From contig JACPGG010000001.1 of assembly GCA_016182545.1 (NCBI GenBank), positions 12,393 to 56,685 on the forward strand: a stretch of 44,293 nucleotides of DNA. The letters run 5' to 3'. The notes beneath the pieces were generated by a model, which was given only the letters and a program-made list of their open reading frames with translations, ran no database searches and was not told where the DNA came from. Source of the DNA: Ignavibacteriales bacterium (GTDB taxonomy: Bacteria > Bacteroidota > Ignavibacteria > UBA10030 > UBA8401). The translations under genes were made by a program, and so were the position numbers. This document shows, piece by piece, positions 6,811 to 35,983 of this stretch (positions within the stretch are counted from its first letter, which is position 1; each line of letters begins with the position of its first letter).

Positions 6811-8049
6811 TCAAAACTCCAACATCACCCCATTTTTTACCACTTTCCAAACATGATTCATTCCGTAATGGTACGGAATAAAACGATAATCGTGCACGTC
6901 GTAGATGACAACATCCGCCTGTTTGCCGATCTCGATGCTGCCGATCTCCGCAGATAATCCGAGCGCGGCAGCGCCGTTGAACGTCGCGGCGGTGATCGCC
7001 TCTTCCGGCGTCATGCGCATTTGCGTGCAGGCGAGCGTCAGCATCATCTGCATGGAGTAGCTCATCTGCGAGCCGGGATTGAAATCGGTCGCAAGCACGA
7101 GTGGAATCCCCGCATCGATGATTGCGCGGGCGGGAGCGTACGGGTGATTGAGAAAGAGTGAACAGCCGGGAAGAACCGTCGCAATTGTTTGTGAATTTTT
7201 CAGTGCCGCAATACCGCTTTCATTTGTCTTTTCAAGATGATCAACCGAGATGGCGTTATGTTTTGCGCCGAGTTCCACGGCGCCGAAAGCATTGAGTTGA
7301 TCGGCGTGAAGTTTTGGGATCAGTCCGTGCCGTTTCGCTTCGAGAATGATCTGTTCGGTGAAATGGAGGTCGAAATATCCCTGCTCGCAAAACACATCGA
7401 CAAACGTCGCCAGTTTTTTTTCTGCAATGTACGGCATCATGTAATCGCAGATGCGGTCAACGTATCCTTGTTTGTCGTCTTTATATTCGGGAGGAAAGGC
7501 ATGAGCGCCGAGGAATGTCCCGACGACCGTCGCGTAATGGTCCCGCTGCAGATCGTGGATCACTTCCAGGATCTTTATTTCGGCTTCAGGCGAGAGTCCG
7601 TACCCGCTTTTGATCTCGACGGTCGTCGTACCGTACCGCATCATATCATCAAGCCTTCGTTCTGCCAGATGGTAGAGGTCTTTCTTCGATGCTTCACGCG
7701 TTGCACGCATGGTAGAAATAATTCCGCCGCCTGCCTCGGCAATTTCCTGGTATGATTTTCCCTCTGCACGCATTGCAAACTCATTCTCGCGGGTGCCGGC
7801 AAAAACGGTGTGCGTGTGCGAATCGACGAATCCGGGAAGCACCGTCCTTCCTTCGGCATCGATCACATCAAAATCTTCCGGAGGAGTCAGTTCATCCTTC
7901 TTTGCTATCTTGGCAATAATGCCATTCTCGATCAGCAGCGACGCATCGGAGAGAACGCCGAGCGACCGCATCTCTTCTCCGGTCTTCACCCTCTTACCAT
8001 GAGATGCGACGGTAACCAATTGACCGATATTATTGATGAGTAGATTCAT
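6811..8049 (-). CDS. hutI: Imidazolonepropionase
   Basis: A 412-residue amidohydrolase that opens 4-imidazolone-5-propanoate to N-formimino-L-glutamate, the third step of histidine breakdown. The metal-binding His-Thr-His is at residues 78-80 (GFVDSHTHTVFAG), followed by the family segments AGGGIISTM, TTTVEIKSGYGL, GTFLGAHAFPPE, KLHADQLN and the Asp-containing ATDFNPGS. Length is normal for HutI. It is the last of a minus-strand run that begins with hutU, and its first codon overlaps the small Cys-rich gene by 4 bases. The hutH and hutG/hutF genes are not in the window. Confidence 0.96.
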   Translation of the reverse strand: MNLLINNIGQLVTVASHGKRVKTGEEMRSLGVLSDASLLIENGIIAKIAKKDELTPPEDFDVIDAEGRTVLPGFVDSHTHTVFAGTRENEFAMRAEGKSYQEIAEAGGGIISTMRATREASKKDLYHLAERRLDDMMRYGTTTVEIKSGYGLSPEAEIKILEVIHDLQRDHYATVVGTFLGAHAFPPEYKDDKQGYVDRICDYMMPYIAEKKLATFVDVFCEQGYFDLHFTEQIILEAKRHGLIPKLHADQLNAFGAVELGAKHNAISVDHLEKTNESGIAALKNSQTIATVLPGCSLFLNHPYAPARAIIDAGIPLVLATDFNPGSQMSYSMQMMLTLACTQMRMTPEEAITAATFNGAAALGLSAEIGSIEIGKQADVVIYDVHDYRFIPYHYGMNHVWKVVKNGVMLEF

Positions 8050-11429: not shown

Positions 11430-13079
11430 TCATTTTAACATCGGTATTTTTACGTTGAATTGCTTGGCATTCTTTATTGCTCTGTCGTACCCCGCATCAG
11501 CGTGGCGCATAATTCCCATTCCGGGATCGTAGGTCAATACTCTTTTCAAGCGTTCATCTGCCTCATTCGTACCATCGCACACAATGACCATCCCATTGTG
11601 AATCGAATTTCCGATACCGACTCCCCCGCCGTGATGCGCGCTTACCCAGCTAGCGCCGCCGATTGAGTTCAGCATTGCTCCCAGGATGGGCCAATCGGCA
11701 ATTGCGTCGCTGCCGTCCTTCATCTTTTCCGTTTCGCGGTTCGGCGATGCAACACTCCCGCAATCCAAATGGTCGCGCCCGATGACGATCGGCGCTTTTA
11801 CTTCTTTCGTACGCACAAGATCGTTGAAAATTTTTCCCATCTTCGCCCGTTCTCCATAACCGAGCCAGCAGATGCGTGCCGGTAATCCTTGAAATGCAAC
11901 ATGCTTCTGCGCTTTCTCGATCCAGTTTTTCAATAATGTATTTTCCGGAAATGTTTCCAGAACTGCACGATCAGTTCGATAGATATCGTCGGGATCGCCG
12001 GACAAAGCAACCCAGCGGAATGGTCCTTTGCCGTCGCAGAAGAGCGGTCGGATGTATTCGGGAACGAATCCGGGAATATCGAACGCTTTCTTGACGCCGT
12101 ACGAAAATGCTTCGCCGCGGATATTATTGCCGTAATCGAAGACAATTTTTCCTTTCTTCTTCAGCAACAACAAACCCTGCACATGTTCGGCAATCGATGC
12201 GCGGGAACGTTCGACATATTTCTTGGGATTCTTCTTCCGCATATCAAGCGCTTTTGTATAACTCATTCCCGCGGGAACATATCCGTTCAATGTATCGTGT
12301 GCGGACGTTTGATCGGTGACGATATCCGGAAGGAATTTTCCCCGCGCAATTTTCGGAACGATCTCAGCAGCATTGCCCAGCAGTCCGACGGAGAGTGGCA
12401 TTTTATTCTCTTTCGCCATTCGGATCATCGTCATCGCTTCGTCGAAGTCGTCGGTCATTTTGTCGAGATATTTTGTGGCGAGACGTTTTTCGATGCGCGA
12501 ACGGTCGACGTCGATGGCGAGACATGCGGCGCCGTTCATTGTTGCAGCAAGCGGTTGTGCCCCTCCCATTCCGCCGAGTCCGGCTGTAAGAAGAAATTTT
12601 CCCGCGAGTGATCCGCCGAAATGCTGACGCGCCGCTTCAGCAAATGTTTCATACGTCCCCTGCAGAATTCCCTGCGAGCCGATATAGATCCAACTCCCCG
12701 CGGTCATCTGTCCGTACATTGTCAGTCCGAGCGCTTCAAGCCGGCGGAATTCATCCCATGTTGCCCATTTGGGAACAAGCATCGAGTTGGAAATAAGAAC
12801 GCGGGGCGCGTTGAGGTGCGTGTTGAATATGCCGACAGGTTTTCCCGATTGCACGAGAAGTGTTTCGTCGTTCTCTAATTTCATCAATGCATCAACGATC
12901 GAATCGAAGCATTTCCAGTTGCGTGCGGCTTTGCCGGTGCCGCCGTAGACGATCAGTTCCTGCGGTTTTTCGGCGACATCGGGATCGAGATTGTTCATCA
13001 ACATCCGGATCGCCGCTTCCTGAATCCACCCTTGTGCGGAAATGTTTGTTCCGCGCGGGGCGCGAATAATGCGAGACAT
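11430..13079 (-). CDS. hutU: Urocanate hydratase
   Basis: A 549-residue cytosolic NAD-dependent enzyme that converts urocanate to 4-imidazolone-5-propanoate. Family segments are clear: [14 protein letters not shown] near 43-56, the NAD-binding [17 protein letters not shown], the active-site Cys region [15 protein letters not shown], and [17 protein letters not shown] close to the C-terminus. Length is typical. It is the first gene of the minus-strand run hutU, hybrid kinase, Hpt, small protein, hutI. A terminator-like hairpin and a promoter-like sequence lie within 70 bases of its ATG. Confidence 0.97.
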
Positions 13080-28011: not shown

Positions 28012-28242
28012 CATCATCCGTTTTAACGGTTTCGTTTTAATTACACCCAAATTCCCTCCTTTCAATAAAATATTTACAGTAAAAATCGCCGATTTTCTGC
28101 AAAATTGAGCAATTCTAAAAAAAATAAAAAAAACTTCGAATTTCGGCTCTGAAAAAAAAATTTTTACGGTATATGTACGAAAGGAGGGTGTCGTCTATAC
28201 GTTACAGCGAAGATGTGGGGTAAAAAACTAAAGGAAAAAGTT

Positions 28243-28686
28243 ATGTCCACACACATCCGCTATCGCAAGATCACACAATATAAATATCAGGTGATGGAAA
28301 CGTGCTCCTTTCGCATCGGCATACAACCGCGTGAAGAGATCTTTGAGCCGAAGCCGCCGGTGAAGACGTACATCCATTTGTCCAAAGAAGGAATGCTCAC
28401 CATCTCCGAAGGATATGCGTGGGACGGTCCGAGCGGTCCCACAATTGATACAAAGAATTTTATGCGCGGCTCATTGGTGCACGACGCGCTCTACCAATTG
28501 ATCCGCCAGAAAGCGCTCGGCATGGAAGACCGGTTGTACGCCGACCAATTACTACGGCGCATGTGCCGCACGGATGGGATGAGCATGTTTCGTGCATGGA
28601 TTGTCTATTTGGGAGTCCTTTGGTTCGGCGCTTCCTCTGCGCGACCAAAAGATAAAAAGGATGTGGTGATTATTGATGCGCCGTGA
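28243..28686 (+). CDS. DUF1353-family protein
   Basis: About 147 residues from the ATG at 28243, which has AAAGG a few bases upstream; an in-frame ATG at 28213 lacks this. The segment ISEGYAWDGPSGPTIDTKNFMRGSLVHDALYQL is the DUF1353 signature, with a conserved WDGPSGP and an HDALYQ that may form a hydrolase-like site. The family is frequent in phages and in bacteria with prophages, but the role is unknown. A C-terminal hydrophobic stretch (AWIVYLGVLWFGA) may touch the membrane. The last codons and the stop are encoded by the first copy of a 127-bp repeat, so the C-terminus may have been changed by repeat insertion. Confidence 0.85.
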   Translation: MSTHIRYRKITQYKYQVMETCSFRIGIQPREEIFEPKPPVKTYIHLSKEGMLTISEGYAWDGPSGPTIDTKNFMRGSLVHDALYQLIRQKALGMEDRLYADQLLRRMCRTDGMSMFRAWIVYLGVLWFGASSARPKDKKDVVIIDAP

Positions 28687-29039: not shown

Positions 29040-29438
29040 TCACCAAAGAAAGAGTTTGACAATCGCCGGAAGTGTTTTGACAGCAATCATAAGTGACTCG
29101 ACAGCCGTCAGAAGAACATTGACTGCTGCCGGAAGCAGATCGACAGCGTTCAGAAGCAGTTCGACAAGAACAAAATGCGATGTGACATTATCACGATGAT
29201 AATCGACAGCGCCAAAAAGCAGTTCGACGAGAGCAAAATGCGATGTGACATTATCACGATGATAATCGACAACGACAAAAAGCAGTCCGACAGCGATAGG
29301 ATGTCATGCGACAGGATCAAGATGTCAGGTGACAGAACCAAAAAGCAGTGTGTCAACTCCCAAAAGCAGTTTGACGGGTTCAAAATGCATTGCGACGAAG
29401 CCAAAAAGTAGTATGACACGGTCAAAAAGCAGTTTGCA
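29040..29438 (+). repeat. Array of about 19 contiguous degenerate 21-bp units
   Basis: Every 21 bases the sequence returns to a pattern close to AGNNNCAAAAAGCAGTTCGAC; units end with GAC at 29060, 29081, 29102 and so on to 29417, without any spacer. A 63-bp higher-order copy is visible: 29166-29228 and 29229-29291 differ at few positions. As the period is a multiple of three, both strands stay open for long: the plus frame reads heptads such as KKQFDES-KMRCDII-TMIID, but has stop codons within units 29082-29102 and 29397-29417; the minus frame is open from 29425 to 29150. No ribosome site or start supports translation on either strand. It may be a decayed coiled-coil gene or a non-coding minisatellite. 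Confidence 0.9.
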
Positions 29439-29686
29439 GCGAAGAAAAAGAGGTTGGTATTGATGAATATTGTGTGTTATCGATAAAAAACGGACTTTCA
29501 TCATTCAAGAACGAGAAGAACGGCAAATGGAGAATGAGGTCCGGAAGGCAAAATAACTACCCAATCACGTAGGACATCTTTGGGGGAAAAATGGTACACT
29601 CTCCGGAACGAAACAACGATCATTCCATAACAATTGACGTTCACTCAATGGGGGCTCACTCACGCAACAGACAGACCGACGGTGAC

Positions 29687-29913
29687 ATGCTCACCAAAAT
29701 ACATAAAGAGATTCTCCATTGTTTGGGAAAAGGATACACCAAACCACAAGCCCACCTCCGCCAGAGGCGGACAAGTCTGGCGGGCAAGCGGCAAAAAAAA
29801 TGGGATTGAACGTGTATACGCTTGACGGACAGTTGCGCGAGATTTACAAGATTGTCGATGCACACACGATGACAGAAGCAGTGGCGAAGGCGATTAGGGA
29901 AAAAATGATTTGA
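29687..29913 (+). pseudogene. Small ORF split by a palindromic repeat
   Basis: Before the repeat the frame reads MLTKIHKEILHCLGKGYTKPQ; after it, in another frame, MGLNVYTLDGQLREIYKIVDAH and on to REKMI at 29913. Both halves look protein-like and each stops making sense where the repeat element at 29751-29784 begins or ends. The simplest reading is one small gene of about 60 codons into which the repeat was inserted, shifting the frame. No family is recognised, and chance ORFs cannot be excluded. Confidence 0.35.
29751..29784 (+). repeat. Palindromic repeat CCTCCGCCAGAGGCGGACAA type
   Basis: Contains CCGCC-AGA-GGCGG and ends with GTCTGGCGGG. Related pieces are at 18888-18922, 28851-28860 (TTGTCCGCC) and 35936-35965. 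Confidence 0.7.
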
Positions 29914-30069
29914 ATTTGTCACTCATATTCTACACATTCTCGGCAATGACCAATTAAAAAAACCTGTGCAGCATTTAAACAATCATCTCTTTAAGAATGG
30001 TTGTAATCAGACTTCAAATAGGCTACATCTAATCCTGGAATTTATTAGATATAAAACAAAGGATATTGT

Positions 30070-30672
30070 ATGATAAAATTTGATAAAAATGATTTTTATG
30101 GAATAATCGGAATATTTTTATCCGTAGTAGGAATTCTTTTATCTTTCTTTATTCCAAATGTCGAATATCCTGATGATGCAATTAGTTATAGTCAAACAAC
30201 CGAAAGGACTGATAGTTTATTCATTATTGCATCTGTTTTAAAAAATGAAAGCTACGCAAATGCTATCATTGACATAAAATCGGAATGTTTTTTTTCCAAG
30301 CCAATTATTAAATATAGTACAGAGGGTTCTCACCGAGGAAATGTAAAATATACTTTTACAAACAATAATACAGTATCAAAACTTGAGTCAGATTCTATTT
30401 TTCTATTGCCTGCAAGAGCATTCATAAAATCAAATTTTATAAAAGATAGTTATGTTTATTTCTCGAGGAATCCAAATATTCAAGGATCAAAGTTTTCTAC
30501 TGGTGGGATCAAAATCCCACTTGAGGTTTTTCAATCTGAAAATTATCAAGAACTTGTGAATAATGCGTTTAAAAAATTTGGATTATTTTTGGGATCAGTG
30601 ATCGGATTAATTATTAGCATTATACTTATAGTGCTTACATATATAAAAAATCTTGGAGGGCTCAATGGCTGA
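30070..30672 (+). CDS. Two-TM membrane protein of unknown function, first gene of the AT-rich cassette
   Basis: A 200-residue protein with a membrane helix near each end (about 10-28, IIGIFLSVVGILLSFFI, and 175-196, FLGSVIGLIISIILIVLTYI) and a polar, mainly beta-type domain of about 145 residues between them that would face the outside if the N-terminus is cytoplasmic. No family is recognised. The coding sequence is strongly A+T rich, as is the rest of the cassette. Its stop codon overlaps the start of the transporter gene by 8 bases, so the two products are probably made together and may interact in the membrane. Confidence 0.75.
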   Translation: MIKFDKNDFYGIIGIFLSVVGILLSFFIPNVEYPDDAISYSQTTERTDSLFIIASVLKNESYANAIIDIKSECFFSKPIIKYSTEGSHRGNVKYTFTNNNTVSKLESDSIFLLPARAFIKSNFIKDSYVYFSRNPNIQGSKFSTGGIKIPLEVFQSENYQELVNNAFKKFGLFLGSVIGLIISIILIVLTYIKNLGGLNG

Positions 30673-32329
30673 AAATATGACAACCAACAGCATATATGCT
30701 ACGAGGAAAAAATCAGGATTGGTAAGGAGTTTTGGTTTGTTTGGTGCCTTCCTATTTGGAATTCATTGTATAAGTCTCTCCTCATCAGGATTTATCCCAT
30801 TTTCATGGGTTGCTTCAGTTTGGCCTGGAGCTAGTATCTCGGGTGTTTTAATAATTGCTGCACTATTGTGTACGATCCATGGAATAAGTTATGCCATAAT
30901 TGGAAGCATCACTCCAAGTGCCGGTGCTGATTATGTTTTAGCTAGTAGAGTTGTTCATCCCTCAATTGCGTTTGCGGCAAGTTTTACATTGGTCTTGTTT
31001 AGTGGAATCGTTGCCGGAGGACTAGCTGCTTGGATACCGCAAAGCGCAATTCCAACATTATTTAAATCTATGTCTATAATTTTACATGATTCAAAGTACG
31101 AACTTTTTGCAAATTTTTCTTCAAGTAGTACTGGTACGCTTTTAATTGGAAGCGTGATAGTTGTTATTTCTATTTGGGCAGTAAGCATATCCAATATAAA
31201 TCTACAAAGAATTATGATCGTTGGATTTGTTCTAGGAATAATTGCGTGGATTATAGTTTATTTTAGCCTTTTTTTAGCAGATGGTCCGGAACATTTTAAA
31301 AATGCTTGGAATAATTTTATGGGTTCATCAAGCTCATTTGGACTTTTTGATGATAGAATTAATTTAGCAAAAAAAGCGGGGATGAAATTAAATACCTCTG
31401 TTAGTGAAATGACCTTAGCAGGTTTAATAATGGGTTTTTGGATTTACTACGGATATTACATTCCTACTTTTTTTTCGGAGGAAATACAAACACCAAGCAA
31501 GACATTAATTCAGGCTTCAAGTTCTGCAATTATATTTTCCATGCTAATTTTTGTATTAGGTGATTTATTATTGGAAAATTTGGTATCGCCAGAGTGGATT
31601 GCGGCTGAAGGATATATTGCAAATAATCCGGGTTTAATATCAAAAGTAACGGGGGGTGAATCCGTCCCTGCCATGCCTTGGATTACTTTCTATGCTGCAA
31701 TTTTATTACCAATCCCAATACTAATTTACACGGTTGCAGTAGCTTGGATATTTACTTTAATAAATCTTATTCAAACATATTTTTTCTATTCAAGTAGAAT
31801 AGTTTTATCGTGGGGGCTAGATAGATTAATGCCCGATTGGATTACAAAATTATCCCCAGGTACAAATACTCCTCGGAGAGCGGTTTTCTTTTTTGGCGCA
31901 TTCGCGATATTTGGTTTATATGATGCCTCCGAAGGTGGACCCTTAGCAACACAAATGACGTTTGTATTTTTTGCTGTAGTAACTCAGATGGTACCGATTT
32001 TTGCATTTACTTTCCTCCCATTCTTAAATTCGCAATTATTTGAAAAGGCACCTGACTACGCTAAGAAAAAATATTTTGGGATACCATTGTTATCAATTAT
32101 TGGAGGAGTGACTTTTCTTTATCTTTTATGGATGGTTTATGCATCTTTCAAATTCCCTGCCGTTGGAATTAAGGATCCTATTTCAACTCTAAAATTATTA
32201 ATAGCAATGCTTATGATAGGTATAATATGGTTCTTTGTTATAAAGATATATCGAAACAGGAAGGATGGAATTGACATTATGAAAACGTTTAGTAAATCTG
32301 TCAAAATGGAGGAGTCTAATTTTGAATAA
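30665..32329 (+). CDS. APC-superfamily transporter-like membrane protein
   Basis: About 554 residues from the ATG at 30665, which has GGAGGG five bases upstream; a TTG at 30653 in the same frame is less likely. Around twelve membrane helices. The start of the domain (GLVRSFGLFGAFLFGIHCI) and the segment ITPSAGADYVLASRVVHPSIAF correspond to the conserved TM1 and TM2-TM3 regions of amino-acid/polyamine/organocation permeases, where PRSGGDYVY-like motifs occur. The residue pattern TPRRAVFFF after a long central loop is also typical. Substrate unknown. Its 3' end overlaps the phosphoesterase gene by 8 bases. In this setting it could be a transporter or, more speculatively, a membrane effector. 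Confidence 0.82.
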   Translation: MAENMTTNSIYATRKKSGLVRSFGLFGAFLFGIHCISLSSSGFIPFSWVASVWPGASISGVLIIAALLCTIHGISYAIIGSITPSAGADYVLASRVVHPSIAFAASFTLVLFSGIVAGGLAAWIPQSAIPTLFKSMSIILHDSKYELFANFSSSSTGTLLIGSVIVVISIWAVSISNINLQRIMIVGFVLGIIAWIIVYFSLFLADGPEHFKNAWNNFMGSSSSFGLFDDRINLAKKAGMKLNTSVSEMTLAGLIMGFWIYYGYYIPTFFSEEIQTPSKTLIQASSSAIIFSMLIFVLGDLLLENLVSPEWIAAEGYIANNPGLISKVTGGESVPAMPWITFYAAILLPIPILIYTVAVAWIFTLINLIQTYFFYSSRIVLSWGLDRLMPDWITKLSPGTNTPRRAVFFFGAFAIFGLYDASEGGPLATQMTFVFFAVVTQMVPIFAFTFLPFLNSQLFEKAPDYAKKKYFGIPLLSIIGGVTFLYLLWMVYASFKFPAVGIKDPISTLKLLIAMLMIGIIWFFVIKIYRNRKDGIDIMKTFSKSVKMEESNFE

Positions 32330-33278
32330 GTTAAAATTATTATTCGCATCCGACCTTCATGGTTCAAATATTTGTTTTTTAAAGCTTATTGCATTAGCAA
32401 AAGAATTACAAGTCAATATGGTTATAATCGGTGGCGACTTATCAGGAAAGTTCTTAATCATATTGGAGAGTGTTAAGGATGATTATATTATTGTTCGAAA
32501 GCCTTGGAGCAATAGGCAAAGTATTGTCAAAATGAATGAATTTGATGTTTTAAAAAAAGAGTGGGGTAACAAAGGGCACTACTATGCATTTGCACCTGAT
32601 CATCTAGCTGACAAAGTATACTCTGATGATTCTTTACATAACAATTTACTAAGAACTGCCATTAGAACTAGACTAACCCAATGGTTGACCTATTCTCAGA
32701 CAGAATTATCAAAAAGCGGGATAACACTATCTCTTATTCCGGGAAATGACGATCCTTTAGATATTAATGAAGATATTAACTCTGTTCCCTGGGCTAACAA
32801 CATTGATGAAATATCTTTAACTGTCGGTGAGTGGATTTTTATAGGGCTGGGTTATTCAACTCCTACACCATGGAAAACACCAAGAGAATTGGATGAATCT
32901 CAAATAAAAGAAAAACTAATAAATACTTATAACACAATTAAAAATACTGATCTGCACAAAGTTATTCTTGTAAGTCATGTCCCACCGAAGGGAATTGGTT
33001 TAGATATAGCTCCAGAGGTAATAGTTCAAAATAATGAATTAGTCACAGTGCCGGGCAGTGAAAAAGAGGTAGGTAGCGACTCTGTAAAACAAATCATTTT
33101 AGAAAAAAAACCATTAATAACTCTGTCTGGACATTGCCATGATTCTGCAGGCATCCAATTTCTCCAAAATACTTTGTGCATCAACGCTGGAAGTTCGTAC
33201 ACAAACGGAATTCTAAGAGCAGCTCAAATAACTCTGGAAAATTCAGCGGTGAAAAATTATCAAATATTTATGCGATAA
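32322..33278 (+). CDS. Calcineurin-like metallophosphoesterase
   Basis: A 318-residue soluble protein starting with TTG at 32322 behind the ribosome site TGGAGGAG; this places its start inside the end of the transporter gene. All metal-binding motifs of the family are visible: Asp11-Leu-His13 (ASDLHGS), Gly38-Asp39 (IIGGDLSG), Gly141-Asn142-Asp (IPGNDDP), His219 (LVSHVPP) and Gly270-His271-Cys-His273 (LSGHCHDS). It should therefore be an active phosphohydrolase with two metal ions, acting on a phosphomonoester, phosphodiester or nucleotide. An insertion of about 70 residues (50-120) between the second and third motif is larger than in minimal members. Seven bases separate it from the nucleotidyltransferase gene. 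Confidence 0.88.
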   Translation: MNKLKLLFASDLHGSNICFLKLIALAKELQVNMVIIGGDLSGKFLIILESVKDDYIIVRKPWSNRQSIVKMNEFDVLKKEWGNKGHYYAFAPDHLADKVYSDDSLHNNLLRTAIRTRLTQWLTYSQTELSKSGITLSLIPGNDDPLDINEDINSVPWANNIDEISLTVGEWIFIGLGYSTPTPWKTPRELDESQIKEKLINTYNTIKNTDLHKVILVSHVPPKGIGLDIAPEVIVQNNELVTVPGSEKEVGSDSVKQIILEKKPLITLSGHCHDSAGIQFLQNTLCINAGSSYTNGILRAAQITLENSAVKNYQIFMR

Positions 33279-33284
33279 TACTAA

Positions 33285-34016
33285 ATGAATGATTCGACTA
33301 TGGAGGGTATAGAAGTTGTAGATCGGTTAGAAGTAAACGGTTTAGTTGCTCGCCTTTTTGGTGGAGCGGGAATTAAGCACTTGAACTTATTAAACAAATT
33401 CAATCGTGAAAGAGATATCAAAGATTTAGACATTGTTGTAAAAGCATCTGACTATCAAAATATATTTAATGAACTAACTAAACTAAATTGGACTCCTCTT
33501 CCTAATCAAAGAAGCATTGATGTAAGCCGTAAGTTGACTTTTTTTAATCGTCAAAACATAATGTTAGATTTATATTCGGATCCTTTAGTATTTTGTCATA
33601 AATTGTATTTGGGAGAAAGATTAATTCTAACATCACCGCATTTAAATCCTTCAGATTTGTTCTTAACAAAAATACAAATTGTTAATCTGACGCAGAATGA
33701 TTTAGAAGATTTATGTGCACTTTTATTTACGTACGACTATCTCACAGACCAAGACGAGAGAAATTGTTTAAATCCAAAAAGAATTATTTCTGTCTGTCAG
33801 AATGAGTGGGGATTTTATTTTACGATTAAGAGAAGCTTATCTACGATAAGGGATTACTGTTTTAACCATGATTATACCGAAATTCAGCAAAAAATAATTT
33901 TTGATCGATTAGATAGAATTTATTATTCAATTACACATATGAACAAATCATGGTCGTGGAGAATTCGAGATTCGATTGGTACCAAAATTAAGTGGTATAA
34001 TGATGTAGAAAATTAA
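33285..34016 (+). CDS. Nucleotidyltransferase-fold protein
   Basis: A 243-residue protein with the core signature of DNA polymerase beta-type nucleotidyltransferases: Gly26-Gly27 (ARLFGGAGIKHL), then Asp47-Leu-Asp49 (RDIKDLDIVVKA) and a third acidic position at Asp95 (NIMLDLYSD). The remaining 140 residues are helical and lack a known domain. Similar stand-alone proteins occur as antitoxin or toxin relatives (AbiEii, MenT, MNT type) and as small-molecule adenylyl- or nucleotidyltransferases. Catalytic residues look intact. It has no strong ribosome site and follows the phosphoesterase by 7 bases. The product and target are unknown. Confidence 0.72.
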   Translation: MNDSTMEGIEVVDRLEVNGLVARLFGGAGIKHLNLLNKFNRERDIKDLDIVVKASDYQNIFNELTKLNWTPLPNQRSIDVSRKLTFFNRQNIMLDLYSDPLVFCHKLYLGERLILTSPHLNPSDLFLTKIQIVNLTQNDLEDLCALLFTYDYLTDQDERNCLNPKRIISVCQNEWGFYFTIKRSLSTIRDYCFNHDYTEIQQKIIFDRLDRIYYSITHMNKSWSWRIRDSIGTKIKWYNDVEN

Positions 34017-34096
34017 TGTGACACATAATAGGTAATAAAGATTCCCCCTGATCGAAATTAAGACAAAAAACATTCGTTTCATTAAAGAGAATATAT

Positions 34097-35854
34097 ATGC
34101 GATATAAAAAATTCACAATTCAGAATTACCGAGGGATAACAAACCCTTTAGCCATTGATGTTGGTGAAAATTCGCTAATTCCTATTATTGGTATAAATGA
34201 ATGTGGTAAAACGACAATTCTACAAGCAATATATTGCTTTGATTTTATTAATGACAAGGAATACAAAGAGAAGCATATAACAAACACGCTGAATTTATAT
34301 CAAACATCAGATGCAAATCCTCCCCTGATCTCTGCATCGATAGAACTGAAAGTAAAAGAACTTGAAAAAGTTTTTGAAGAATTTAATCAAAGCGAAGTGA
34401 AAAAGGTTGAGGAATCTAAAAAAACAGGCAAGAACTATATACCTAAATCCGTTAATTCTAATGAATTGATAAATCAATTTTCTGATTCAATCGAAATTCA
34501 AAGAGACTTAACCACTTTGGAATATAGCGTAATTAGTCCGAATGTTGAGATACCAAATGCTGTTATTAAAGAAATAATCAGACACGCACCCTACATCTTG
34601 TACAATGATGATTTCATGGACCGACCGCCAAATACAATTGACATTCCTGATGAAAAACCCGATTCATTAAAAGATTGGTTAGCAATTTTTGAAAGACTTT
34701 TTAATGCAACAAATCCAAATTATTCGTTGTTTTCTTTGATCCAAGAAGATGATGAAAGGCGCCGATTATCAATAATTTCGGATGTAGAAGAAGTCCTAAA
34801 TAAGAAACTTTCCAAAGCTTGGAAAACATTCTTATTAAGCAACCATGGGGCATTATATGTAAAATTAATACTTCGGCGTAACGAAAAACCTATCAAACTC
34901 GAGATTCAAATAATCGAGAAGATGGGAAAAAGAGAAAGATTTTTTGATGTTGCAGATAGGAGTAAGGGGTTTTTATGGTTTTTCAACTTTGTAATGAAAC
35001 TTGAATTCAATCCAAAAGTCGTAGGTAATACTAAGGATACAATTTTTCTGTTAGATGAACCGGGTTCGTATTTACACTCGACAGCACAAGAGAAGCTGTG
35101 CAACAAGATCAAAGAAATTTCTGAGAAAAGTGGCGTGGTAATTTATTGTACACACTCGCATCATTTGTTAAATCCAGATTTTATTCCACTTAACAAAGTA
35201 TATATTGTTGAAAAAGAAAGAGAAAAAAATATTAAAGCCACACCTTTGCCTCAAATAAAATTTAAAAAAGATAATCTCAACGCTTATCAACCAATTCATG
35301 ATGCTTTACAGATACCTAGCTTTGATTTATATGATAGTACATCCAAAATAGTGGCGGTTGAAGGAATATATGACAAATATTCTATTCAATTATTTTGTGA
35401 AATAAATAATCACATTGTAATTTTACCTGGTACAAATGCTGATTCAATAGTCAAAAATATTCAATATCTAAATGGATTTTCTAGGATTTATACGGCTATT
35501 TGGGATAACGATGCAGAAGGTAGGGATAAATTAGAAAAAGCACGAAAGATTTTTGGTGATATTGAGAGTGAGAAATTTGACAAATTACCTGCTAAAGGAT
35601 TATCAGATAGAAAAATGGAACAGATGTATGAAAACAATGATTTAGAAAAAATATCACTACTTCTTGATCTTCCAAAAGAAGCAAATTATGAGAAAATTAT
35701 TTCGATGCTCTTTTTTTCAAAAAAAAGTAAGATTGAAAAGGCAAAAAGTCTTCTGTCAAAAGAAACAAAAGAAAATTTTAGTATTCTTTCAGACATTATC
35801 AAAAAGAGGTTGAAAATAGCAGAGGAACTAAACCAGATATCATTAGAAAAATAG
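34097..35854 (+). CDS. OLD-family-like ATPase with C-terminal TOPRIM nuclease domain
   Basis: A 585-residue protein. An ABC/SMC-type ATPase forms the first two thirds: RecF-like start (KFTIQNYRGITNPLAID), Walker A at Gly32-x4-Gly37-Lys38-Thr39 (GINECGKTT), Walker B with Asp320-Glu321 (FLLDEPGSYLH) and the switch His353 (YCTHSHHLL). The LDEPGxxLH pattern is typical of OLD and related ATPases. The rest is a TOPRIM domain with Glu422 (VAVEGIYDKY) and Asp470-Asn-Asp472 (IWDNDAEG). OLD-family proteins, including GajA of the Gabija system, are DNA nucleases that act in phage defence. No UvrD-like helicase partner is next to it. It stands 80 bases behind the nucleotidyltransferase gene, in the same direction, and shares its A+T-rich composition. 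Confidence 0.88.
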   Translation: MRYKKFTIQNYRGITNPLAIDVGENSLIPIIGINECGKTTILQAIYCFDFINDKEYKEKHITNTLNLYQTSDANPPLISASIELKVKELEKVFEEFNQSEVKKVEESKKTGKNYIPKSVNSNELINQFSDSIEIQRDLTTLEYSVISPNVEIPNAVIKEIIRHAPYILYNDDFMDRPPNTIDIPDEKPDSLKDWLAIFERLFNATNPNYSLFSLIQEDDERRRLSIISDVEEVLNKKLSKAWKTFLLSNHGALYVKLILRRNEKPIKLEIQIIEKMGKRERFFDVADRSKGFLWFFNFVMKLEFNPKVVGNTKDTIFLLDEPGSYLHSTAQEKLCNKIKEISEKSGVVIYCTHSHHLLNPDFIPLNKVYIVEKEREKNIKATPLPQIKFKKDNLNAYQPIHDALQIPSFDLYDSTSKIVAVEGIYDKYSIQLFCEINNHIVILPGTNADSIVKNIQYLNGFSRIYTAIWDNDAEGRDKLEKARKIFGDIESEKFDKLPAKGLSDRKMEQMYENNDLEKISLLLDLPKEANYEKIISMLFFSKKSKIEKAKSLLSKETKENFSILSDIIKKRLKIAEELNQISLEK

Positions 35855-35935
35855 ATCCAAACTACATCACCCGACTGATCTGTCTTATTTCACACTCGTC
35901 ACTCCCCTTTCCTCATCGCTTCTCATTTGAAATGT

Positions 35936-35983
35936 GACGGACTTGTCCGCCAGAAGTGGACAGGTAAAGATTTGGAAAATCTT
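35936..35983 (+). repeat. Two adjacent dispersed repeat pieces at the right edge of the cassette
   Basis: GACGGACTTGTCCGCC followed by AGAAGTGGACAGGT (35936-35965) belongs to the CCGCC/GGCGG family, and AAGATTTGGAAAATCTT (35967-35983) is one arm of the GATTTTCCAA palindrome found at 20870 and 42872. They lie between the OLD-like gene and the promoter of the next gene, where host-like composition returns. Confidence 0.75.

Follow-up and report, generated by a model that had tools for sequence, protein, structure and literature searches.

Comparison with described systems

The closest described systems to the locus analyzed here were GlnD–PII–AmtB, the ANT(2'')/Lnu enzymes, the MenT/AbiEii/NTP_transf_5 group, the calcineurin-like phosphoesterases, and, for gene 5 only, the Class 1 OLD proteins. 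The locus was a cluster of five genes (Table 1) in a 44,293-nt window (the whole stretch of DNA analyzed: positions 12,393 to 56,685 of contig JACPGG010000001.1, assembly GCA_016182545.1, Ignavibacteriales bacterium), and its genes 2 to 4, hereafter the triad, encoded an APC-superfamily permease, a calcineurin-like metallophosphoesterase (MPE), and a stand-alone nucleotidyltransferase (NT). GlnD is a bifunctional enzyme. GlnD–PII–AmtB and, as proposed here, the triad would have in common a transporter gated by reversible nucleotidylylation, an enzyme of nucleotidyltransferase (NTase) fold with a removing activity, and a link to nitrogen nutrition; the two differed in that the triad had (i) a secondary APC permease (PF13520) instead of an ammonium channel (Amt) and (ii) a separate small NT plus a calcineurin-like MPE instead of one bifunctional enzyme. 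The genes of GlnK and AmtB are often paired, Archaea included (PMC3831643, PMC3612183). No PII gene was noticed among the recurring neighbor clusters and assigned families of the triad loci, to which this result is confined, no PII-profile or genome-wide search having been made.

The ANT(2'')/Lnu enzymes act alone in resistance, without a permease or phosphoesterase partner. NT shared with ANT(2'')-Ia and LnuA, its closest PDB chains by sequence, the small stand-alone NTase fold and the G...DxD...D site, but the sequence match was not significant (E 0.04). With the MenT/AbiEii/NTP_transf_5 group, NT shared its best fold match (MenT1) and a weak NTP_transf_5 match, but the window NT fell below the curated cut-off and the partner genes differed. 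CBASS differed on two counts: NT matched no PADLOC model and displayed a MenT/LnuA/ANT-like fold, and the triad was not found beside Cap effectors or defense islands, its recurring neighbors being catabolic. MPE had the same fold and seven metal-binding residues as the calcineurin-like phosphoesterases aq_1956, TT1561, Mre11/SbcD, and MPPED2, but it differed from them in its own motifs GGD-x-x-GK, GNDD, TPW...R(E/D), and H-x-PP...LD-x-AP and in its obligate partners. The triad combination fitted no named system tested, its parts being known superfamilies, and the initial annotation of the window had likewise known no named system with this set. Nothing relevant to the combination or to PF14907 was found in the open-access papers searched, and as far as these papers and the searched libraries show, the trio is apparently undescribed.

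Co-occurrence of the triad in bacteria and archaea

The APC permease, MPE, and NT formed a near-obligate triad in bacteria and archaea. The earliest clue came from a plasmid search, in which the haloarchaeon Halobellus limi had relatives of genes 3 and 4 as direct neighbors, next to an APC permease, and Thermomicrobium roseum had relatives of genes 2 and 3 as direct neighbors; the permease subfamily occurred on 2 of 72,556 plasmids, exactly those bearing module genes. An MPE profile run against about 85,000 prokaryote genomes gave 80 loci, 76 of which harbored the permease subfamily and 60 of which harbored NT; for nine seed loci that had no NT next to them, the genome carried NT elsewhere in seven cases. 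Gene orders varied (MPE–APC–NT, NT(-)–MPE–APC, APC–MPE–NT, NT–MPE–APC, and others), as did strand arrangements, and no fusions between triad proteins were found. Triad members were distributed over Chloroflexota, Actinomycetota, Thermomicrobiota, Pseudomonadota, Spirochaetota, Bacteroidota, one Bacillota bin, Thermofilum, and Nitrososphaerota, some of these genomes being bins with possibly wrong taxonomic labels; the archaeal carriers fell into three groups. Cultured organisms were included, with the trio in, e.g., Rubrobacter taiwanensis and Halobellus limi, and permease plus MPE in Thermomicrobium roseum.

The linkage was quantified in 251 evenly drawn Chloroflexota genomes, in which NT, MPE, and the APC subfamily were present in 53, 51, and 49 genomes, respectively; NT and MPE occurred together in 51 genomes, NT only in two, and MPE only in none (phi 0.976, Fisher p 2e-51). 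NT and MPE had equal copy numbers in 46 of 54 genomes, and one genome had a 5/5/5 count. Exceptions to co-occurrence were mostly explained on inspection: NT lay near a contig end (G485), a permease fragment with the motif RKATGLVR adjoined NT–MPE (G598), the contig was short (G588), or the permease was a generic one lacking the motif (G646). A search starting from NT in 199 Actinomycetota gave 29 loci with MPE (26/29), the permease (24/29), or either (27/29) within 1.5 kb. The distances of the three proteins over 53 loci were correlated in a mirror-tree comparison (r 0.89–0.94; permutation maxima up to 0.19), such a match resulting from common descent as a unit. That distant bacterial phyla and several groups of archaea share this near-obligate trio argues strongly for a real molecular machine that has not been described.

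Features of the permease, MPE, and NT

The permease belonged to a triad-specific subfamily; its gene started at ATG 30665, preceded by a GGAGGG site, the mechanical open reading frame (ORF) opening at TTG 30653. It matched PF13520 over residues 27–521 (E 2.1e-10) and APC transporters in PDB (E 2e-16). The subfamily had a C-terminal tail GID...E and an N-terminal motif R-x-x-[ST]-G-L-V-R, with Ser/Thr in all 76 sequences; in APC transporters of known structure, the residue at this position is usually hydrophobic. A generic permease in another genome (G646) did not carry the motif. The Ser/Thr of the motif is no more than a candidate site of modification.

The MPE metal ligands D11, H13, D39, N142, H219, H271, and H273 were invariant in 86 homologues, the window copy included, so that all ligands of a calcineurin-like enzyme (DxH, GD, GN(D), H, and GHxH) were kept. 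Its AlphaFold2 model had a mean pLDDT (predicted local distance difference test score) of 93.9 and a phosphodiesterase-type fold, and the nearest structures by Foldseek were aq_1956, TT1561, Mre11/SbcD, and MPPED2.

NT displayed G26, D47, D49, D95, H105, K129, Q131, D139, and D142 in 63/63 aligned sequences, R43 in 98%, and a conserved C-terminal W-R-G-WY set; G, DxD, and a third Asp on an NTase fold placed it in the nucleotidyltransferase superfamily. Its AlphaFold2 model (mean pLDDT 93.5) was nearest by Foldseek to MenT1 (top), LnuA, ANT(2''), and CCA-adding enzymes, with TM-scores of 0.4–0.56. The window NT matched NTP_transf_5 (PF14907) with E 0.004 and 17.2 bits, under the Pfam gathering cut-off of 31.2, and a weak match of this kind was seen in 22 of 26 NT members. 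As shown by the alignments, both soluble enzymes keep intact their predicted catalytic residues.

Genomic neighborhoods of the triad

Recurrent neighbors of the triad, whose counts were not independent because many loci came from related Anaerolineales, were genes for DeoR regulator, dimethylglycine-dehydrogenase (DMGDH)/GcvT-like, choline-kinase-like, MttB methyltransferase, CBS, PfkB kinase, glutamine-synthetase-like, arginase-family, AllG, aldehyde dehydrogenase, and nitrilase proteins. One locus (L199) had FGGY-kinase-like, LacI-like, and alcohol-dehydrogenase-like genes, named by eye from sequence; a single-nutrient hypothesis limited to amines was ruled out by these sugar-kinase-, LacI-, and alcohol-dehydrogenase-like neighbors. 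In genome G752, locus L160 contained a second MPE (MPE'), the permease, NT, and MPE together, and beside them (L160:13784–16840) lay asparaginyl-tRNA-synthetase (AsnRS)-like, isoaspartyl-peptidase-type asparaginase, and deoxyhypusine-synthase-like genes, perhaps belonging to a pathway for asparagine or beta-aspartyl peptides. MPE' (L160:7102–8298, beside the permease) had lost catalytic residues (SELHG, GTDD, and HSFIY) and is possibly a pseudo-enzyme subunit; the retention of such a copy beside the permease would be in line with a partner-binding role of MPE in addition to catalysis. Judged from neighbors, the substrates appear to differ between lineages while NT and MPE persist.

Proposed function and alternatives

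We tentatively read genes 2 to 4 as one copy of a widespread uptake module whose NT and MPE would form a reversible nucleotidylylation switch, a reading to which we give a little less than even weight. The permease would import an organic nutrient, a different one from lineage to lineage, NT would move a nucleoside monophosphate from a nucleoside triphosphate onto a target, MPE would cleave the resulting phosphodiester bond, and NT and MPE would together exert reversible on/off control of uptake; the likeliest NT target would be the permease itself, e.g., the Ser/Thr of its cytosolic N-terminal [ST]GLVR, or a permease-bound protein. A make-and-remove pair tied to a transporter is argued for by the almost obligate co-occurrence of NT, MPE, and permease, and to this extent the initial annotation, which had paired NT with the phosphoesterase and given the membrane proteins a transporter or effector role, was supported. 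Since the neighbors varied and the trio was constant, transporter control was favored over chemistry on the substrate. The wider claim is more doubtful: an unrecognized class of transport control in bacteria and archaea, in which NT and a phosphodiesterase would directly and reversibly nucleotidylylate a secondary transporter, probably at the [ST]GLVR Ser/Thr, whatever the nutrient.

Several points weighed against the proposed switch. The structures nearest to NT belong to enzymes that modify tRNA or small molecules rather than proteins; MPE might instead be a phosphatase; about one quarter of the seed loci were without NT nearby; and one genome (G638), the only apparent true loner, had NT without either partner. 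The window copy, moreover, was very divergent (best identity ~35%, end branch 3.6), so that activity can be ascribed to it with less certainty than to the family. As a separate observation, the loner NT ORF of G638 (L195:7477–8646) had a different N-terminal extension.

The main rival, which we consider unlikely, is substrate trapping, in which the permease would import an amine or amino alcohol, NT would nucleotidylylate it for trapping or activation, and MPE would release it. The proteins most similar to NT in sequence and fold include ANT(2'')-Ia and LnuA, which act on small molecules by nucleotidylylating antibiotics, and many triad copies had genes for a choline-kinase-like protein and further amine enzymes nearby; however, the predicted substrates switched by lineage (choline/methyl groups, ureides, arginase-family, asparagine-like, and sugars), while the NT residue set was invariant. 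An improbable alternative is that the NT product would be a soluble nucleotide messenger gating the permease and degraded by MPE. A make-and-break enzyme pair adjoining a membrane protein would suit such a signal, and transporter control by c-di-AMP is known, but NT had no match in PADLOC, a library covering the CBASS nucleotidyltransferases, its best folds were MenT, ANT/LnuA, and CCA enzymes, and the permease tails were short with no conserved sensor domain noticed. It is very improbable that the triad would act in the manner of a toxin–antitoxin system, with NT modifying tRNA or another RNA in connection with amino-acid supply and MPE as the antidote: the top Foldseek match of NT was the tRNA-modifying toxin MenT1 and L160 also had the AsnRS-like gene, but the TM-scores were merely 0.4–0.56, MenT toxins pair with MenA and not with a phosphoesterase, and the near-obligate link to one permease subfamily would be left unexplained. 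The single five-gene defense or nucleotide-signaling system envisaged by the initial annotation from common composition and strand, the tight spacing of genes 1 to 4, and the OLD-family gene 5 is largely refuted and hardly credible, since genes 1 and 5 were missing from all other triad loci, the gene 5 homologue of genome G028 was solitary, and the triad had no viral, phage, or defense links and had catabolic neighbors.

A defense role for the triad itself was likewise not supported. NT and the permease belonged to no PADLOC family; MPE relatives were found neither in viral contigs nor in phage records and NT relatives not in viral contigs, and a mobile viral origin of the module was rejected on these results; and where the initial annotation had proposed a search for neighboring defense genes, the genes beside the triad elsewhere were catabolic (amines, ureides, choline, methyl groups, and sugars). 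The trio, carried almost solely as a set, suggests a general control of nutrient uptake and not virus defense. Should the permease be the target of NT and MPE, a covalent on/off switch would belong to secondary transporters themselves, an AmtB-like control made of other parts. The trio is a small, defined, and testable three-protein system, and many "hypothetical" nucleotidyltransferase and metallophosphoesterase genes would be assigned to transport through it.

The A+T-rich block and its other genes

Table 1. Features of the five-gene locus and its borders (positions in the window)
Feature	Position	Strand	Evidence
20-bp imperfect direct repeat, left copy TCCGCCAGAGGCGGACAAGT, outside left block edge	29757..29776	+	17/20 identical to right copy
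A+T-rich block with all five genes, probably acquired DNA	29950..35900		GC profile
Gene 1, 200-aa orphan, two predicted transmembrane segments	30070..30672	+	hydropathy
Gene 2, APC-superfamily permease, triad-specific subfamily	30665..32329	+	PF13520 (AA_permease_2)
Gene 3, calcineurin-like metallophosphoesterase (MPE)	32322..33278	+	PF00149 Metallophos E 1e-6
Gene 4, stand-alone nucleotidyltransferase (NT): G26, R43, D47-x-D49, D95	33285..34016	+	homologue alignment; weak NTP_transf_5
Gene 5, OLD-type ABC ATPase-TOPRIM, stand-alone	34097..35854	+	AAA_15 E 9e-16; TOPRIM-like 421-490; PADLOC AriA/Old/GajA
20-bp imperfect direct repeat, right copy TCCGCCAGAAGTGGACAGGT, outside right block edge	35946..35965	+	repeat comparison with left copy

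The window came from a 3.5-Mb draft assembly (205 contigs, completeness ~88%). All five ORFs were confirmed, throughout on the + strand, and their coordinates agreed with the initial annotation in the 8-base overlaps, which were exact for genes 1/2 (ATGGCTGA) and genes 2/3 (TTGAATAA), and in the 7 bases from the stop of gene 3 to the start of gene 4; an 80-base gap separated genes 4 and 5. The A+T-rich composition of the cluster also held: the GC contents of the five genes were 0.287–0.351 (28.7–35.1%) versus 0.489 for the remaining window, and their third-codon-position GC contents (GC3) were 0.19–0.27 versus 0.60–0.66 in the nearest flanking genes, the GC profile dropping near 29950 and rising near 35900. 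Promoter and terminator scans gave results at chance level.

When 297 sampled genomes of the phylum were searched with a three-sequence MPE profile (E<=1e-20), 296 had no MPE, the sole holder being the genome of the window itself. A 24-sequence MPE profile applied to 332 genomes of the class gave one further full-length MPE, that of G752 (29% identical; locus GC ~22–32%), and the matches in the other 28 matching genomes were partial (~95–180 residues) and far weaker. In the MPE tree the window copy sat on a very long branch, and no sister of it was supported. Foreign composition and the rarity of MPE in the phylum support horizontal acquisition of the block; a single unit of five genes, as initially proposed, was not supported, genes 1 and 5 being absent from the other triad loci. 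In the comparison across genomes that had been proposed with it, genes 2 to 4 were conserved together in shuffled order and genes 1 and 5 were not linked to them.

Gene 1 had predicted transmembrane segments at about residues 7–33 and 166–199, with a loop of about 130 aa between them; it matched nothing in Pfam, PHROG, or the plasmids, gave sub-threshold hits only in PADLOC/NCBIfam, and had no relative in the searched libraries. Class 1 OLD proteins combine an AAA_15/ABC ATPase with TOPRIM in a single-gene context (PMC10568477). Gene 5 agreed with this class in having ATPase and TOPRIM in one chain of about 585 aa encoded by a single gene with no GajB/reverse transcriptase (RT) partner, and differed in its position 80 bases behind an unrelated operon. 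The closest relative found for gene 5 was 44% identical, had the same order, and was a solitary gene in G028, a genome in which MPE was not found; no close sequence was found in PDB. By its domain matches, gene 5 is the only member of a defense-associated family among the five genes, and it may act in defense. Searched against all other triad loci, genes 1 and 5 were present in none, and they are best read as separate passengers on the acquired block, brought in by co-acquisition or by use of a shared insertion site.

The flanks, initially described as repeat-rich on both sides, were so on the left, where a 134-nt duplication (28674/28892) and a 21/63-nt array (29139–29459) were dense; just one short repeat element was detected on the right. 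The flanking 20-bp direct repeat is a possible insertion trace. A third copy of its degenerate pattern was not present in the 3.5-Mb assembly, which is no more than suggestive, since the pattern was built from these two copies. In an empty-site test the right-flank gene was not conserved, with one distant match among 40 relatives. The 21/63-nt tandem array encoded a 78-aa amphipathic repeat ORF (MRCDIITMIIDSAKKQFDESK...). A DUF1353 gene (28213–28686), just left of the block, matched the phage tail-assembly family phrog_1158 in PHROG (E 6e-27) and is possibly a phage remnant. Farther to the left, hutI-like (imidazolonepropionase; 6811–8049) and hutU-like (urocanase; 11430–13079) histidine-breakdown genes, named by eye, lay on the opposite strand.

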